Source of the DNA: Rugalucina vietnamica
Lineage: Eukaryota; Mollusca; Bivalvia; Lucinida; Lucinidae
Assembly: GCA_964017185.1 (NCBI GenBank)
Contig: OZ024877.1
Coordinates: forward strand, 2,458,006 to 2,522,005
Length of the DNA: 64,000 bases
Direction of reading: 5' to 3'
The position numbers were made by a program, and so were the translations under genes. Within the stretch, counting starts at the first letter, position 1; each line of letters starts with the position of its first letter. This document shows positions 27,411 through 40,905 of the stretch, in pieces. A model generated the notes under the pieces. That model had not been told where the DNA came from and made no database searches. It saw only the letters and a list, made by a program, of their open reading frames with translations.

Positions 27411-30400
27411 TTACCTTACCGATTTCTTACCGACGTAGACACCAATGTAAGTCATCTGACTTCTTCAGGCGCATTTTGATGTGTATTCCATGTAAGTCCG
27501 GTAGTTTGGCCGGGCTCATAGCACGGAGCAGTGAATTTGTATGGGTGTCTGCTCCAATGTTTGTTCAATCTGCTCTTGAAAGTGTTCAGGGAGGGTGCCA
27601 TGACAACGTCCTCAGGGAGCTGATTCCATATGTTTACAACACGGTTGCTGAAGCTGTTTGCTCTAACATTTAACCTTGATCTTTCCTTAAACAACTTTTT
27701 TGGGTGACCCCGTGTACGGTTATAGGTTATCACTGAGAAAAGTTTGTTCTTGTCAACTTTATCAATGTCATTTAATATCTTATAGACTTGTATAATGTCT
27801 GCACGCTGTCTTCTGTATTCTAATGTTGGTAAACCTAACTTCCTAAGCCTTTCTGGGTATGACAAGTTTTTACATGCTCTAACTAATTTAGTTGCACGAC
27901 GTTGAACGTTTTCAATAGATATTCTGTCTTTCTTATACAATGGGGACCAGATCACTGTGGCGTACTCCAAATGCGGGCGCACAAGTGATTTGTATAAAGA
28001 CATAAACATCTCTGTATCTAAATATGTGAATGTTCTAAAGATAATGCCTAAATTTCTATTGGCTAAGTTGACTTTTGCCGATATGTGGTCTCTGAAGGTT
28101 AACTTGCTGTCAATACTTACACCTAAATCTTTTTCATTTGCGACCTTTTCTATGGCCTGTGGACCACTTTCTGTCTGCATGGTATAAGTGTATCCTGTAT
28201 CTTGCGGCCCGACATGTAGCTGATGACATTTTTTAATGTTGAATAACATTTCCCAGTCTATCGACCAAGTACCTGCGTTGTTGACACTACGTTGTAGGAG
28301 TTGCACATCGTTTAAGCTTGATATTACACTATACAGCTTAGCGTCATCAGCGAACAGTTTCAGTAGCACCTCAATTACGTCAGGAAAGTCATTTATAAAC
28401 ACCAGGAATAGCACCGGCCCCAGGACGCTGCCTTGGGGGATACCGCTAGTAACATCTCTCCATTCTGATTTTGAACCATTTATAGTAACTCTTTGTTGCC
28501 TATTGCTTAAAAATTCTTTAATCCACTGATAAGTATTACCTCTTATTCCATATGCATATAACTTCTTCAATAACCGCTGGTGCGGAACCTTGTCAAAGGC
28601 TTTTTGGAAGTCGAGGTAAATTACATCGACTCCCATGCCAGTGTCCAAGGCCTGGGTGATATCCTCTATATATTCCAACAGTTGTGTGGTACAAGATTTG
28701 CCAGCTATGAATCCGTGTTGACACTCAGTAAATAAATTGTTGGTAGTCATATGTTGGACAATTTCATCCCTTATTATGCGTTCCATAATCTTGCCCGGAA
28801 CGGAGGTAAGACTGATGGGTCGATAATTTTCTGGAAGTTTTTTGTCTCCTTTCTTGAAAATAGCTGTTACGTTTGCTTTTTTCCAACAGTCTGGTAATTT
28901 GGATTCTTGAAAGGATTTGTTGAATAAAATACATAGAGGCTTTTTCAGCTGATCTTTCGTTTGTTTTAAGAAGTGTGAGTGTATTTTGTCAGGTCCCTGA
29001 GATTTTGAGGGTTTTAAGTTACTGATGATTTCTTCAACTTTTTTCTCTGTGATTACTATTTGATCTAGCTCATGATTAAAGTTTCTATCATTAAAATCTG
29101 GTATTGTATTGGTGTTTTCATTGGAGAATACACTGGAAAAATATTCATTTAAGGTGTTAGCGGTTTCCTGGTCACTTGAAGTTAAAGTTCCATCTGAACT
29201 TAAGAGCCGAGACACTGATTTTATGGTTTTTGAATTCTTGCTGACATAGTTCCAGAACAATTTATTGTCAGTTTTTATCCTTGCGGCCAGATCTTTTTCG
29301 TAAGCGTATTTTGCGCTACGCAATTCAAGGGTTACGGCATTTCTAGCAATTTTATACTGGTTAAAATTGACAGGTGATTTACAGTACTTGTATTTAAGCC
29401 ATTTCCTATGTTTATTCTTGATAGCATCCAAACAGGACTGTGTGACAACTGGTCCAGCTTTCTCACGTTTCTGACGAGGTTTACTCTCCGGTATGAATTT
29501 CTCTAGTAGATCGATGTATTGCTCTGTAAACCATAACCAGGAGCTCGACAAATCTAGACCTTCCATCTCACCTTCCCAATTTGTTTGCTCAAGTTGGCTT
29601 ATTATACTCTGGTAATCTCCCTTGAAAAAATTGTATCTAGAATGCGTATTATTCTTTGAAGTGTTTGGGGTGTAACAATTGAATTTAAAAGATAAAACTA
29701 AATGGTCACTTCTACCTACACTGGGGTTGTACTGAATGTCAGATACCATTCCTTCTTCGTTTGAAAAGATAAGGTCGAGGATTGATGGTTCATTGTTTGC
29801 TCGATAGCGTGTTGGTTCTAACACATGCTGAAACATGAAGGAGTCCCTAATACTTTCAATGAACAAGGTGGAGTTTTGCTGCTCATTAGATGAAGTAGAC
29901 ATATCTGACCAATTTATGTCTCTGAAGTTAAAATCACCCATTATCAATTTATGTGAATATCTCATGTCTTTTACCTTGCCGAAAAGCTGAAAAAGTTCCA
30001 GGCAGTTTTCATTAGAGCAGTTTGGACTTTTGTAAATACATCCTATTAACAATGAATCACTGTTTTGTAATTTGATAGAACACCAGACTGATTCTTGAAA
30101 GTCTGTTTCCATAACTACTTTATCTGCACAAATTTCGGTTCGTACGAAGATTCCAACCCCTCTTCCTTGATTTGTAGGACCGATAAAAGTGTCATATCCT
30201 TGGAACTGGTAATAAGTATCCAAGTTCTCAAACAAACTATGTTTAGGATAAATTTCATTTAATGCAAAAATATCAATACTAGTGCTGCTCAGCAGCTGTT
30301 CCAGTTCTAGTTTCTTACTCTGTGTAAGGCAGTCAACATTTGAATATAAAACTGAAAGATTTTCTATACAGTTATGATGTAAAAGTTTACTATTTACACT

Positions 30401-30525
30401 AAAATTTTCTCCTGAATTTACAGAGTTAAAATTAAAATTCCTTTCCTACCCGAGATTTGGTTGACCTGGTTGGGACCAGGTTAGCTGATACTCTTCTGTT
30501 TGTGTGCCACCTAAAACAGTAATGT
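27411..30525 (-). mobile_element. RT1: CR1/jockey-like LINE, intact reading frame
   Basis: 3,115-bp non-LTR retrotransposon bounded by 7-bp target duplications and inserted in RT2. The 3' end carries short repeats (GGTAAGAAATCGGTAAGGTAA-like) rather than poly(A), as in CR1/L2 LINEs. No ORF1 is present, so it is either naturally short or 5'-truncated. The 5' 75 bp has a TAG in frame with the main reading frame. Confidence 0.8.
27452..30235 (-). CDS. RT1 endonuclease-reverse transcriptase
   Basis: 927 residues from the first ATG, without a stop. The frame is open about 70 codons further upstream, where the true endonuclease N-terminus (LSVLYSNVDCLTQSKKLELE) lies, so the real start is upstream and not an obvious ATG. 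The apurinic endonuclease part shows MGDFNFRDINW near residue 98 and GRSDHLVLSF near residue 173. The RT palm shows YLDFQKAFDKVPH, GIPQGSVLGPVLF and the catalytic box FADDAKLYS. The tail has VRANSFSNRVVNIWNQLPED. Key endonuclease and RT catalytic residues are present, so the copy could be recently active. CR1 versus jockey clade is not decided. Confidence 0.85.
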   Translation of the reverse strand: MFENLDTYYQFQGYDTFIGPTNQGRGVGIFVRTEICADKVVMETDFQESVWCSIKLQNSDSLLIGCIYKSPNCSNENCLELFQLFGKVKDMRYSHKLIMGDFNFRDINWSDMSTSSNEQQNSTLFIESIRDSFMFQHVLEPTRYRANNEPSILDLIFSNEEGMVSDIQYNPSVGRSDHLVLSFKFNCYTPNTSKNNTHSRYNFFKGDYQSIISQLEQTNWEGEMEGLDLSSSWLWFTEQYIDLLEKFIPESKPRQKREKAGPVVTQSCLDAIKNKHRKWLKYKYCKSPVNFNQYKIARNAVTLELRSAKYAYEKDLAARIKTDNKLFWNYVSKNSKTIKSVSRLLSSDGTLTSSDQETANTLNEYFSSVFSNENTNTIPDFNDRNFNHELDQIVITEKKVEEIISNLKPSKSQGPDKIHSHFLKQTKDQLKKPLCILFNKSFQESKLPDCWKKANVTAIFKKGDKKLPENYRPISLTSVPGKIMERIIRDEIVQHMTTNNLFTECQHGFIAGKSCTTQLLEYIEDITQALDTGMGVDVIYLDFQKAFDKVPHQRLLKKLYAYGIRGNTYQWIKEFLSNRQQRVTINGSKSEWRDVTSGIPQGSVLGPVLFLVFINDFPDVIEVLLKLFADDAKLYSVISSLNDVQLLQRSVNNAGTWSIDWEMLFNIKKCHQLHVGPQDTGYTYTMQTESGPQAIEKVANEKDLGVSIDSKLTFRDHISAKVNLANRNLGIIFRTFTYLDTEMFMSLYKSLVRPHLEYATVIWSPLYKKDRISIENVQRRATKLVRACKNLSYPERLRKLGLPTLEYRRQRADIIQVYKILNDIDKVDKNKLFSVITYNRTRGHPKKLFKERSRLNVRANSFSNRVVNIWNQLPEDVVMAPSLNTFKSRLNKHWSRHPYKFTAPCYEPGQTTGLTWNTHQNAPEEVR

Positions 30526-32655: not shown

Positions 32656-35505
32656 TTATTTCTTGAATAGTGCTGATGTGTGTTGGTGAGTTCTTTGATG
32701 GCTGACTAGGCCAATTCTGGCTCTAAACTGTCGGTTGCAAGTAGAGCAAGTCAATGTCCTAGAGTCTGCTGGTGGCACATTTGTTTTGGCTTTGCGCTCT
32801 CTTCGCTTTCTTTCAGCTTCACAGATTCTTTTCTTTTCATAGAGAGCTGCTCCTTTGTTGATGAGACCTCGCCACTTTGATCGCTCCTGTGCAGTCTGTT
32901 CCCAGGACCCCATTGGTATTTTGAAATCCTTCAGAGAGGCTTTGAGGGTGTCTTTGTAGCGTTTCTTCTGGCCACCTTGAGAGCGCTTTCCCTCCTGTAG
33001 TTCTCCATAGAAAACTTTCTTTGGAAGTCGCGCATCAGGCATTCTTATAACATGGCCAGTCCATCTTAGCTGTGCTAGCTTTAAGACTGTATGCATGCTT
33101 TGCATCCCTGCTTTCCTCAGGACCTCTGTGTCTGGAATCTTGTCCTGCCACTTGATTTTTAACAACTTTCTCAAACAGCTTAAGTGGAAATGGTTAAGTC
33201 TCTTTGCATGGCGTTGGTATACTGTCCAGGTCTCACATGCATACAAGAGGGTTGGCAGTACCACAGCCTTGTAGACTTTCAGCTTGGTGTCAAGCTTGAT
33301 TCCATTTCGCTCCCAGACATTTGCACGGAGTCTTCCGAATGCCACACTAGCTTTTGCAATTCTGGCAGTGATCTCATCATCAATATGCACTGCTCTGGAG
33401 AGAGTGCTTCCCAGGTAGGTGAACTTGTCAACAACTTTCAGTTTTTGCCCATTCACAGTGATGGTTGGTTCATTATATGGTTTTCCGGGGGCTGGTTGGT
33501 GTACAACCTCTGTCTTTTTTGTGCTGATTGTGAGATCATAGTTATCACATGACTGTGAGACTTGATCCATGGCTCTTTGCATTTTTGCCTCTGTGTTGGC
33601 ATTCTTATCCATATCATCTGCATAGAGGAGCTCATCTAGCACATCAGTCTGGACCTTAGTTTTGGCTTGCAACCTTCTGAGGTTGAATATGTTGCCATCA
33701 AAACGGTACCTGATTGGAAAACCAGTGTCACTGTCCTGAAAAGCATCCATAAGCATGGCAGAAAACATCATGCTGAACAGTGCTGGTGCCAGAACACAGC
33801 CTTGTTTGACCCCATTTGTTACTTCAAATGGTTCAGAGAACTCTCCATCATTCTGCACACGTGCCTGCATGCCATCATGAAACTGCCGCACCATAGCTAT
33901 GAATCTGGGTGGACAGCCAAACTTGGCCATGATTTTCCAGAGTCCATCACGACTAACAGTGTCAAAAGCTTTGGTGAGGTCAACAAACGTCATGTATAGA
34001 TCTACATTCTGTTCTTGGCATTTCTCCTGAAGCTGTCTTGCTGTGAAGATCATGTCTATTGTCCCTCTGTCTTTTCTGAATCCACATTGACTTTCTGGGA
34101 TAAGTCCCGTCTGATCAAGATGAGCATTCAGACGATTCAACAGAATTTTTGCAAGTATCTTCCCAGCAATTGATAGGAGGGAGATGCCTCTGTGATTGTC
34201 ACAGACTTGAGGATTTCCTTTCCGCTTGTATAGGTGGATTATGGATGCATCCTTAAATTCTTGTGGGATAGCCTCCTTCCTCCACATACAGTGAAACAAC
34301 TCTGTCAGTTTCTCTGCCATGGGTAGCCCCCCAGCCTTGTAAACTTCGGCAGGAATTGCATCTGCACCTGGGGCTTTGCCAAATGATAGTTGTTGAACTG
34401 CTTTTCTTGTTTCCGTAACGGTAGGAAATTCATCTAACAGAACATTGCACTCTATCTGTGGAAGTCTGTCGATTGCATCCTGATTGATGCTTGATGGTCG
34501 ATTAAGCACACTATTGAAGTGTTCCGCCCACCTTTCCAAGATAGCCTCTTTATCTGTGAGAAGAGTGTTTCCATCTGCACTGAGCAATGTGGTGGCTCCA
34601 GAACTCTTTGGACCATAAATGGTTTTCAGTGCATCATGAAATTTCTTCATGTCCTTTCTATCCGCAAAAGACTGAATTTCTTCTGTTTTCTTCCTCAGCC
34701 AGGAATCTTGCATGTCCCTAAGCTTGGTCTGGACTGTCTTACAAATGTTGCTGTAGGCTGCTTTCTTGGATACTGAGCTAGTATCATCTTGATGTGCCTT
34801 GAGCAAACGGTGCTTTTCTTCAAGAAGCCTCTGAATTTCATCATCATTCTCATCAAACCAGTCTTGATGTTTGCGAGATGGATGGCCTAAGGTGCTTGCA
34901 GCTGAAGAAAGAACTGTTTTATGGAAAACTGTCCAGTTTTCTTCGGGGTCCTCTGAACTGAGATTCATTGCATCAAGTTGGTTGCAAATGTCTGTTAAGA
35001 AATTTTGTCTCATGCTGTCTTTATTCAGCTTTGAGACATCCAGTCTCTTAGGAGCTTTCTTGCCTTGAGGTCGCCTCGCAGGCTGTATTCTTAGGTTGAG
35101 TTTGCTGACAACCAGTCTATGATCTGTCCAGCAGTCTGCACCACACATAGTCTTTGTCACTTTAACATCCTGCCTGTCTGTTCTCCGCACTATGACATAG
35201 TCTATGAGATGCCAGTGTTTGGAACGGGGATGCATCCAGGATGTTTTGTTCCTATTAGGTAGACGGAAGACTGTGTTGGTGATTAGAAGATCATGTTCAG
35301 CACACTTCCTGAGAAGCAAGAGACCATTGCTGTTACACTTTCCAACCCCTTCTGGACCTATAACTCCTTCCCAGGTCTGGTGGTCTGTACCCACTCTGGC
35401 ATTAAAGTCGCCAAGAAGGATAAGCTTGTCTGTGCGGGGTGTTGCAGAAATAACATTGTCTAGGTCATCATAGAACTTGTCCTTGACCTCATCTGGATTG
35501 GTCAT
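32656..35505 (-). CDS. RTE-like endonuclease-RT with C-terminal zinc finger, copy 1
   Basis: 949 residues from the first ATG. It shows LLGDFNARVGTD, HLIDYVIVRRTD and DCWTDHRLVVS of the endonuclease; TFVDLTKAFDTVSRDG, GVKQGCVLAPALFS and LLYADDMDKN of the RT; and LRKLLKIKWQDKIPDTEVL after the palm. The C-terminus has a C2H2 zinc finger, CSTC-x12-HQRTH. The true N-terminus is upstream and is disconnected by a 2-bp deletion at 35560, so this copy is frameshifted. It differs from copy 2 by 11 residues over the shared 949. Confidence 0.85.
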   Translation of the reverse strand: MTNPDEVKDKFYDDLDNVISATPRTDKLILLGDFNARVGTDHQTWEGVIGPEGVGKCNSNGLLLLRKCAEHDLLITNTVFRLPNRNKTSWMHPRSKHWHLIDYVIVRRTDRQDVKVTKTMCGADCWTDHRLVVSKLNLRIQPARRPQGKKAPKRLDVSKLNKDSMRQNFLTDICNQLDAMNLSSEDPEENWTVFHKTVLSSAASTLGHPSRKHQDWFDENDDEIQRLLEEKHRLLKAHQDDTSSVSKKAAYSNICKTVQTKLRDMQDSWLRKKTEEIQSFADRKDMKKFHDALKTIYGPKSSGATTLLSADGNTLLTDKEAILERWAEHFNSVLNRPSSINQDAIDRLPQIECNVLLDEFPTVTETRKAVQQLSFGKAPGADAIPAEVYKAGGLPMAEKLTELFHCMWRKEAIPQEFKDASIIHLYKRKGNPQVCDNHRGISLLSIAGKILAKILLNRLNAHLDQTGLIPESQCGFRKDRGTIDMIFTARQLQEKCQEQNVDLYMTFVDLTKAFDTVSRDGLWKIMAKFGCPPRFIAMVRQFHDGMQARVQNDGEFSEPFEVTNGVKQGCVLAPALFSMMFSAMLMDAFQDSDTGFPIRYRFDGNIFNLRRLQAKTKVQTDVLDELLYADDMDKNANTEAKMQRAMDQVSQSCDNYDLTISTKKTEVVHQPAPGKPYNEPTITVNGQKLKVVDKFTYLGSTLSRAVHIDDEITARIAKASVAFGRLRANVWERNGIKLDTKLKVYKAVVLPTLLYACETWTVYQRHAKRLNHFHLSCLRKLLKIKWQDKIPDTEVLRKAGMQSMHTVLKLAQLRWTGHVIRMPDARLPKKVFYGELQEGKRSQGGQKKRYKDTLKASLKDFKIPMGSWEQTAQERSKWRGLINKGAALYEKKRICEAERKRRERKAKTNVPPADSRTLTCSTCNRQFRARIGLVSHQRTHQHTSALFKK

Positions 35506-35539
35506 TGTGGGTGCATAAGCACTGACAATAGTTGCATGT

Positions 35540-35929
35540 TTATTGCCTGACAGAGGAAGTCAATGTCATTAGACGGTCATTAATGCCTTTTGGCAATCCT
35601 GACAGCTTACCAACAAGTTCTGTTTTGATGGCAAAGCCAACTCCTGCTTCACGCCTCTCTTCACTTTTGCGTCCACTCCAGAAGAAGGTGTATCCAGCAC
35701 CAACTTCTTTGATCTCCCCAACATCTGCGAACCGAGTCTCACTCAATGCAGCTATCTGTATATCATACCTCCCAAGTTCTCTGCCCACAAGGGCCGTTCT
35801 ACGCTGTGGTCTACCTGACCCAGCACTATCCATTAAAGTGCGCACATTCCATGCGCCAATCCGTAAGGGGATTACTCTAGCTTTTTTCTTTGTATTTCGA
35901 CCGCTTAAGGGGATCCCCGCTGATCGCGG
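35540..35929 (-). pseudogene. RTE-like LINE copy 1, N-terminal endonuclease in shifted frame
   Basis: The - strand frame carries LRIGAWNVRTLMDSAG, ALSETRFADVGEI and GVGFAIKTELVGKLSGLPKG, the start of the endonuclease domain. Relative to copy 2 two bases are missing (GAAGTCAATG for GAAGTCTCAATG), which shifts the frame before the main part. The frame is open back to a TAA at about 35930. Confidence 0.8.
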
Positions 35930-38513: not shown

Positions 38514-39204
38514 AAAATACACCATTTTCGCAATTTTTTCTCGCTCGCAACGCTCGCTCTTTCAAAGAAATTCATGCAGACAGAGCTGTGTTCTTTATAG
38601 ACAAATTAATTCCATATTTTAAGTGAAAATTAGAAGGTGTTATTTTGTAAAATTCTCTCTAGAAATGCACCTGAAAGCATGCAAACTGTTTCCATAATTG
38701 CAAAATTTTCTCGCTCGCATGGCTCGCGAAGAAAATAATCGATCTTGGGTGCTCCCCCGTTGACAGACCCTCTGGGAAGCCGTGACAAACAGCGTGGTGG
38801 TGCACCAACTAGAGTTGATAAGGTGCGAAAAGGTGCGAAAAATACCGAGTAGCCAGGTCGCGAAAGGACTAAGTGCGCACGAACCAGGTCGCGAAACATC
38901 CAGGCACCAAAGAAAACGTCTACCATAAAACAAGTGTGTCCCTATGTTGTGATAAATTTGGCAGCATAATAGCATTGAGAAAAAAGGATTTTTGATTCCA
39001 TGATTACTTGTGAAAATTGGTGAGTTTCTTCAACTTAACTGTAGATTAATGAACGTTTATGTATGATTTTGTAAGTCGACCAAGTTGCTATGTCCGACAT
39101 TTGTTGTTTAAGTAAGGGTGGGGCAGCCAACATTTTATTTGACAAGTACAAGCTTTTTTAAAGAGGTGTTATTGCTGACTTTTTCCACTAGATTGATCTG
39201 ATTG
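38514..39204. other. CTCGCTCG-type units and unassigned sequence
   Basis: Two more CTCGCTCG units (38536, 38706), then about 450 bp with small internal repeats (AGGTCGCGAAA twice, GGTGCGAAAA twice). No gene. Confidence 0.45.
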
Positions 39205-39209
39205 ATCTT
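39205..39209. repeat. 5-bp target duplication, left
   Basis: ATCTT, repeated at 40672-40676 directly outside the element with CACAGTG ends. Confidence 0.75.
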
Positions 39210-39500
39210 CACAGTGTATATCCGAACGTATGCAGAACAGACGGTTACGGAAGGGACAGACGTTTACAGGAGCACGCGCTTTTTCACGCCAAAAATGTTT
39301 TTCCGTTCTTTTAAAGTGACTTATGCAAATATTGAGACCAAACTAGAGCAGATGTGTTGCATACATACCCGTCTAGTTGTCTGTGCTCAAGAGCACAATG
39401 ATTTTTCAGGGGGTTCGCCATAACTGCCCAAGACGTGTGAAAAATGGCATATTTTGTATTTTTTTTGACTGTGTGTCGAGATTGCTTGCAAAATAGCCAT

Positions 39501-39700
39501 TGTCAACCTTTTGGATTTAGTCCGTATGTAGTTAAATATGTCATGAACCACCAGACATTAAATATTTTATATGTTTTCCAGTAAAAATAGCAAAGATTTG
39601 TGTCAACCTTTTGGATTTAGTCCGTATGTAGTTAAATATGTCATGAACCACCAGACATTAAATATTTTATATGTTTTCCAGTAAAAATAGCAAAGATTTG
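39501..39700 (+). repeat. Perfect 100-bp tandem duplication
   Basis: 39501-39600 and 39601-39700 are identical base for base (both begin TGTCAACCTTTTGGATTTAG and end GCAAAGATTTG). It is either very recent or an assembly artefact. Confidence 0.9.
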
Positions 39701-39984
39701 TTTTTTTGTCTGAAGCGTATGGTAATTTCATGGTTACGGGGCGGTACAGTAGTTTGTTACGGAGCGGAACAGACGAAATGACGCATTTCCATACGAAACG
39801 GAACAGACGTAGCGAGCTTTAGAATACGTATAGAAACAGCACGAATGCCAGCCTTCCATATAGACCTCCGGTTAAAACAGACATGAGTCTTATTATCGGA
39901 CCTTTTCAGACTTTTCAGTCTATTATTTTAGAATTTATTGTTAGATATGCACTATTAGTGATACTATATAAATTTAAAGGAGAA

Positions 39985-40126
39985 GAAAAGCCGTGATTGC
40001 CTCGTGATGCTGAGCACCAAGGAAGCCATTGGTACCATTTTAACGCATTTGATATGGCGCGGCCTGGGCGAACCCACGACATCTCGCCCCCGAAGCGGGC
40101 GCTTTTACCACTGAGCTATTGGGACC
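39985..40126 (-). repeat. tRNA-derived SINE inside the CACAGTG element
   Basis: On the - strand it starts GGTCCCAATAGCTCAGTGG (A box), then GTGGGTTCGCCC (B box), then a body with GGTACCAATGGCTTCCTTGG. The acceptor stem does not close, so it is a SINE and not a tRNA gene. Confidence 0.65.
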
Positions 40127-40671
40127 TCTCCCCCTCTCTCTCTGATCTGCTGTTTGCCCCCAAACAACTTTTTGTTTTCACAACATAGTCGATGCTATTC
40201 TGATACATGTACGATGCTGATCCAGGTCACCAGGTGTATTCCATCTGGTCACGTTTGAGTGCTACAATACAGAAGGTTGCCGCAAAGTGTTATATTTGAC
40301 ATCACAGTGTTGTTCATGTAGTATTCATGGCCGTCTGTGACCGCTCCGTATGCTGATTCGTCTGTTTTTTTCGTAGGCTACGTCTGTTCCGCCCCGTAAC
40401 ATAAACGAATCTGTAGACTGTTCCGCTCCGTAATGTTTTTGTTGCTAAGCAACAAAATTCTGCTTAAACTACAAGGCTTCTATGCCGGAAATTATGGTGT
40501 TTTGGAAGATAGTAGATGGACATGCACGGCCGAAATAATAATACATTCGAAGCGTACAGTTTTGGATGAAAAACTGTACAAAACATTTTTGGCTCGAAAA
40601 AGCGCGTGCTCCTGTAAACGTCTGTCCGTTCCGTAACCGTCTGTTCTGCATACACTCGGATATACACTGTG

Positions 40672-40676
40672 ATCTT
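40672..40676. repeat. 5-bp target duplication, right
   Basis: ATCTT, the partner of 39205-39209. Confidence 0.75.
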
Positions 40677-40747
40677 GTACACAAGAAACAAATTAAGACC
40701 AGGCAGAATGACATGTATGTTTGGCTGTCGCCTTCTAAAGTCGGCGG

Positions 40748-40905
40748 GTTCTGAATCTGTATGGTTTACTGGTGATACGCCAAATTGACAATACTTCACC
40801 AGGGGGGGTTGTGCCAGTAGGAAAATTAGTCCAGGTGCTGCCTCTCACAGGAGATGCGAACTTGGACACACAGTCATCAGACAACACACAGTCATTAGAC
40901 AACAC
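40748..40905 (-). pseudogene. RT2-family LINE 3' fragment
   Basis: The - strand carries SDDCVSKFASPVRG followed by the same 3' UTR blocks as at 26527 (TTCACCAGGG, GGTGATACGCC on +) and an ATTCAG-type end. It is a 5'-truncated LINE insertion. Next to it are three ACACACAGTCA repeats at 40868-40915. Confidence 0.6.

Follow-up and report, generated by a model that had tools for sequence, protein, structure and literature searches.

Within the 64,000-nt stretch of Rugalucina vietnamica DNA analysed here (the window) lies a 1462-bp mobile element that belongs to a young set of copies with CACAGTG ends and 5-bp target-site duplications. These ends and duplications can be read directly, as can the varied internal deletions that distinguish the copies and the start of a coding gene that some of them have kept. 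Taken together, they make it probable that the element derives by internal deletion from a cut-and-paste DNA transposon, standing to its parent as Ds stands to Ac and linked to a gene of the C2H2/YqaJ kind, and that its V(D)J-like heptamer arose by convergence.

Inverted ends, a duplication of fixed length, dispersed multiple copies and the lack of a transposase of its own place the element among the non-autonomous cut-and-paste DNA transposons. The CACAGTG ends, the inverted repeats of about 92 bp and the flanking ATCTT duplications that the initial annotation had described are all present (Table 1). In the window copy the inverted repeats match over 93 nt at 95% identity, or over 92 nt at 94.6% by BLAST. 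That this copy encodes no transposase, as had been stated, agrees with its short open frames and with its deleted form relative to the family consensus. Rfam at gathering scores gave no match in window positions 39100–40800. By eye, a stretch on the minus strand at 40040–40130 resembles a tRNA-derived (SINE-like) head; three sister copies were scanned with ARAGORN and contained no tRNA. No paralogous site lacking the window insertion was found.

Table 1 Features of the element in the window
Feature	Position in the window	Strand	Remark
Non-autonomous element, 1462 bp	39210..40671	.	Ends and duplication read directly; about 310 sister copies
Left target-site duplication ATCTT	39205..39209	.	5-bp length as in 37 of 45 insertions
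Right target-site duplication ATCTT	40672..40676	.	Read directly
Left terminal inverted repeat, 92 bp, 5' CACAGTG	39210..39301	+	In the consensus identical to the right end
Right terminal inverted repeat, 92 bp, CACTGTG at end	40580..40671	-	In the consensus identical to the left end
Perfect 100-bp tandem duplication, absent from the family consensus	39501..39700	+	
Subterminal motif, 3 substitutions	39733..39752	+	
Subterminal motif GTTACGGAGCGGAACAGACG, exact	39756..39775	+	
Subterminal motif, 4 substitutions	39790..39809	+	
Internal-deletion junction, consensus position 531 joined to 1323, 3-nt overlap	39837..39839	.	Same in L058
Subterminal motif, exact	40381..40400	-	
Subterminal motif, 3 substitutions	40415..40434	-	

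Inward of the inverted repeats the two arms carry a 20-bp motif in mirrored orientation. Allowing up to five substitutions in 20, the motif was found three times on the plus and twice on the minus strand of the window copy and four and two times in the consensus, against 0.01 times on average (maximum 1) in 200 shuffled sequences. The mirrored repeats noticed by the initial annotation are thus real, whereas its count of four per arm is too high for this copy. Degraded pieces of the motif can also be seen by eye within the inverted repeats. The subterminal motifs are probably bound by the mobilising enzyme.

The window has other repeats as well. A sequence of about 236 nt with a palindromic core near AACAAAGGCGCAGATCAGCTTCGC occurs at least 10 times in both orientations between positions 1220 and 59391. 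Two long open frames on the minus strand, at 27455–30445 and 32659–35559, have endonuclease and reverse transcriptase domains of the non-LTR type.

The first 41 nt of the end, with up to three mismatches, were searched for in the assembly (1.09 Gb, 47 contigs). This gave 308 forward and 316 reverse matches, and none of the reversed pattern that served as control; 624 matches against zero are far from chance, and the two counts put the family at about 310 copies. Viral contigs gave no match to the end pattern. Forty stretches spanning 38 copies were taken by place, all on contigs 1 and 2, and further loci came from the other searches. In the window and the loci obtained, 45 distinct insertions with both ends less than 4.5 kb apart were inspected for duplications, and 37 had an exact duplication of 5 bp. 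Three had 6 bp (L055, L073, L088), one had 4 bp (L044), and in two the duplication was degraded (L056, L071); the remaining two rows are the inner junction of one tandem dimer, viewed from each side. The two largest copies, of 15.2 and 12.0 kb, are additional to these 45 and are flanked by the 5-bp duplications AAGTC and ATATA. Sister copies with the same ends and 5-bp duplications, which the initial annotation had proposed to look for, thus exist in number, and its description of the element as mobile, non-autonomous and duplicating 5 bp is borne out by them. The duplicated targets are rich in A+T (78%, against 63% in the flanks). Within the 37 exact duplications 41 of 185 bases are G or C, and two duplications contain at least three of them. 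Directly outside the duplication C is the most frequent base (35 of 74 sides).

A consensus of 2157 bp was built from 33 copies, the window copy and L047–L078. Its ends are identical to each other across 92 nt, and the copies diverge from it by 0.34–1.40% (window copy, 1.36%). This very low divergence suggests recent activity. The 33 copies include 22 internal deletions, which fall into about 17 junctions, some common to two or three copies; other copies show little net loss. All 35 loci examined, mostly one-ended and on contig 1, match the family consensus. The family is young, ordinary-looking and non-autonomous, and its heptamer, though striking, is probably a coincidence.

The 15.2-kb (L039 and L040) and 12.0-kb (L041 and L042) copies were considered as autonomous parents and rejected, since each is the 2.2-kb element interrupted by a nested insert, with 4 bp overlapping where the insert entered. 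In the nested insert of L039/L040, which is of the LTR type, one frame is gag-like with a zinc knuckle and another is like a Baculo_F envelope. L043–L046 were also set aside; by eye they hold nested or rearranged repeats. A search for variant ends, which share CACAGTGTATATCCG and differ in the next base, gave three matches: one is L079, a copy of the family, and the other two are the ends of a single 166-bp relative (L080/L081). This relative (L080, 1501–1666) has diverged ends and an ACAAT duplication and was found once. With it as query 615 candidates were obtained, of which 40 were scored; beyond the relative itself, the main rows are 79–81% identical and cover its inner part.

One locus on contig 14 (L091/L092, 25040105–25040140) is a tandem dimer. 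Its units are 99.6% identical and joined flush, end to end, and one TTAAT duplication surrounds the pair. No second junction of this kind was found in the genome at up to three mismatches. Recombination involving a circle that had been excised and closed by flush joining of its ends may have produced the dimer, or the dimer may, as a single case, be an assembly artefact. The flush junction is consistent with cleavage precisely at CACAGTG.

Two copies, L047 and L048, carry about 540 bp of extra sequence beyond consensus position 701. The extra stretch opens with a C2H2-like finger, which is broken in L048 and whose spacing, C-2-C-12-H-4-H, is by eye that of a classical C2H2 finger. The coding start is present in L047, L048, L083–L085, L087 and L088, with lesions specific to each copy. 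A DNA search with it yielded 67 candidates. Forty of these were scored, and the first 12 (L082–L093) were read; they take in every row in which at most the last 30 nt of the coding start are uncovered. At all 12 loci the coding stretch meets right-arm sequence within about 150 nt. L085 extends furthest into the gene; with its furthest stretch as query, the only matches were L085 itself and 37 nt of the L084 copy. A complete parent copy, with the whole gene between CACAGTG ends, was not present among the loci of this assembly that these searches reached. For the gene-start fragments all Pfam hits were below the cut-off; zinc-finger models were among them, as was a model of a putative plant transposon protein (PF20167, E = 0.17). 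No RAG1 or hAT model was listed.

Searched as protein against the genome, the gene start gave 41 rows from 102 scored candidates. Beyond family copies these include two pieces on contig 9 (64% and 42%) and a match on contig 7 (31% over 84 aa) within an open frame of 1669 aa. Several further loci carry similar N-termini, and at some of them the open frame has a length of about 280–1669 aa. The diverged copy L095 matches the gene start with 64.8% identity over 91 aa and with 36.6% over 82 aa; its match to the protein of L094 is 53.6% over 151 aa. Compared directly, L085 and L094 are 32.9% identical over 73 aa and, beyond a frame break, 68% over 19 aa. A protein search of viral contigs gave two stretches that fit a pattern, neither of which was confirmed.

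L094 has an intact open frame of 1569 aa from its ATG, in which a nuclease domain of the YqaJ type scores 33.6 bits (cut-off 22). The score of a TNP-like RNase H model, 13.2 bits, lies below the cut-off of 24.6 (E = 0.12) and is a hint only. Pfam found no RAG1, hAT or CMCT-clade model in L094, and a PDB sequence search at E values up to 10 gave no match. Proteins of this kind are widespread in cnidarians, molluscs and fish, and to our knowledge they are uncharacterised in these animals. The N-terminus of L094 is homologous to the coding scraps of the family. In contrast to the family copies, L094 has no convincing matching ends in the 2.2 kb on each side, where the one CAC..GTG pair that is flanked by a 5-bp duplication fits at 9 of 14 positions; the tie of the protein to CACAGTG ends therefore rests on the partial copies.

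We propose that an enzyme supplied in trans would recognise the inverted ends of 92 bp and, probably, the 20-bp motifs that lie mirrored in the subterminal regions. After cutting exactly outside CACAGTG, it would insert the ends into A+T-rich DNA with a stagger of 5 bp, which would produce the 5-bp duplication. The mobilising system would include a gene whose product has a C2H2-like finger followed by a conserved core and a nuclease of the YqaJ type, like that of L094, and the parent presumably carried that gene whole. The RAG-like heptamer would be a convergent trait, aided by the fact that CA..TG ends occur in several superfamilies of DNA transposons. The closest known parallel is provided by the internal-deletion derivatives of Ac/Ds (PMC3260210), which have in common with the present family the conserved ends, the subterminal repeats, the variable deletions and the need for an enzyme acting in trans. 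The present family differs from Ac/Ds in its 5-bp duplication, in its 92-bp inverted ends and in a gene start to which no hAT model could be assigned. The Ac/Ds duplication is 8 bp long.

The initial annotation had taken CAC..TG ends and a 5-bp duplication as the hallmark of Transib and RAG-like transposons and had suggested that such an enzyme, encoded elsewhere in this genome, recognises the ends. The exact RSS heptamer, the ends starting with CAC in both the window copy and the consensus, the 5-bp duplications (37 of 45 exact) and the one flush, signal-joint-like junction are in its favour. However, CA..TG ends with duplications of 2–5 bp are common to several superfamilies, including the CMCT clade to which Transib belongs, and hAT5 elements also duplicate 5 bp (PMC12730594); the two features are therefore unspecific. 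The CMCT clade and the family have CA..TG ends in common, and the duplications of both fall within 2–5 bp, but the parent-related protein L094 has no Pfam model of this clade. The molluscan and nemertean RAG-like transposons (PMC7204232) resemble the family in their CAC start, their 5-bp duplications and the existence of non-autonomous copies. Beyond CAC, the family end CACAGTGTATATCCGAG fits the protostome RAG-like consensus given there, CACTWMCAAACKTYKBB with a conserved AAA at positions 8–10, poorly: by eye 8 of 17 positions agree, degenerate ones counted, and none at positions 4–8. The A+T-rich target and the gene start are further differences from these elements. RAG targets are 5 bp long and GC-rich (PMC11844651), whereas at least three G/C were found in two of 37 duplications here. 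By eye, a nonamer is missing at both 12 and 23 bp, neither the coding scraps nor L094 have a RAG1 model in Pfam, and a mollusc survey counts one Transib element (PMC10294476). Mobilisation by a RAG-like or Transib enzyme is thus unsupported, given the C2H2/YqaJ-related gene start, the poor fit of the terminus and the A+T-rich targets; we regard it as improbable, and the link of the heptamer to immune-system recombination is probably a coincidence or a convergence.

That a hAT-type enzyme of the group with 5-bp duplications (hAT5) moves the family is less probable still. Such an enzyme would account for the duplication found in 37 of 45 insertions, and subterminal repeats are usual in hAT elements. 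However, inverted ends of 92 bp are long for hAT, the gene start has the classical C2H2 spacing rather than a BED-type finger, and Pfam returned no hAT model for the fragments or for L094. The 5-bp hAT5 families are placed in a lineage with animal hAT families (PMC12730594). The coding scraps could also be a captured gene fragment, with a true enzyme that has nothing to do with it; no complete parent copy turned up in the assembly searches and the flanks of L094 are without matching ends, both of which speak for this reading. We nevertheless consider capture about as improbable as a RAG-like enzyme, because the scraps form a nested deletion series of one longer gene start, as expected for derivatives of a coding parent, and because similar N-termini stand at several other places, some of them in open frames of about 280–1669 aa. 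Derivation from a parent with the C2H2/YqaJ gene is the explanation that we prefer.

It is tempting to go one step further and to speculate about a transposon superfamily whose protein would combine a C2H2-like finger with a YqaJ-type nuclease and perhaps a divergent transposase core of the RNase H-like kind. Such a superfamily would have arrived by convergence at the exact V(D)J heptamer and the 5-bp stagger, and could leave flush, signal-joint-like junctions between its ends. We hold this to be rather unlikely. If it is true, RAG-like ends and the geometry of the cut arose more than once. The family cautions against inferring RAG from RSS-like ends together with a 5-bp duplication. If the YqaJ-linked protein is the enzyme, the family would represent a transposon lineage in which RAG-like ends are served by unrelated machinery, and such a lineage would help to separate the inherited from the convergent features of V(D)J recombination.
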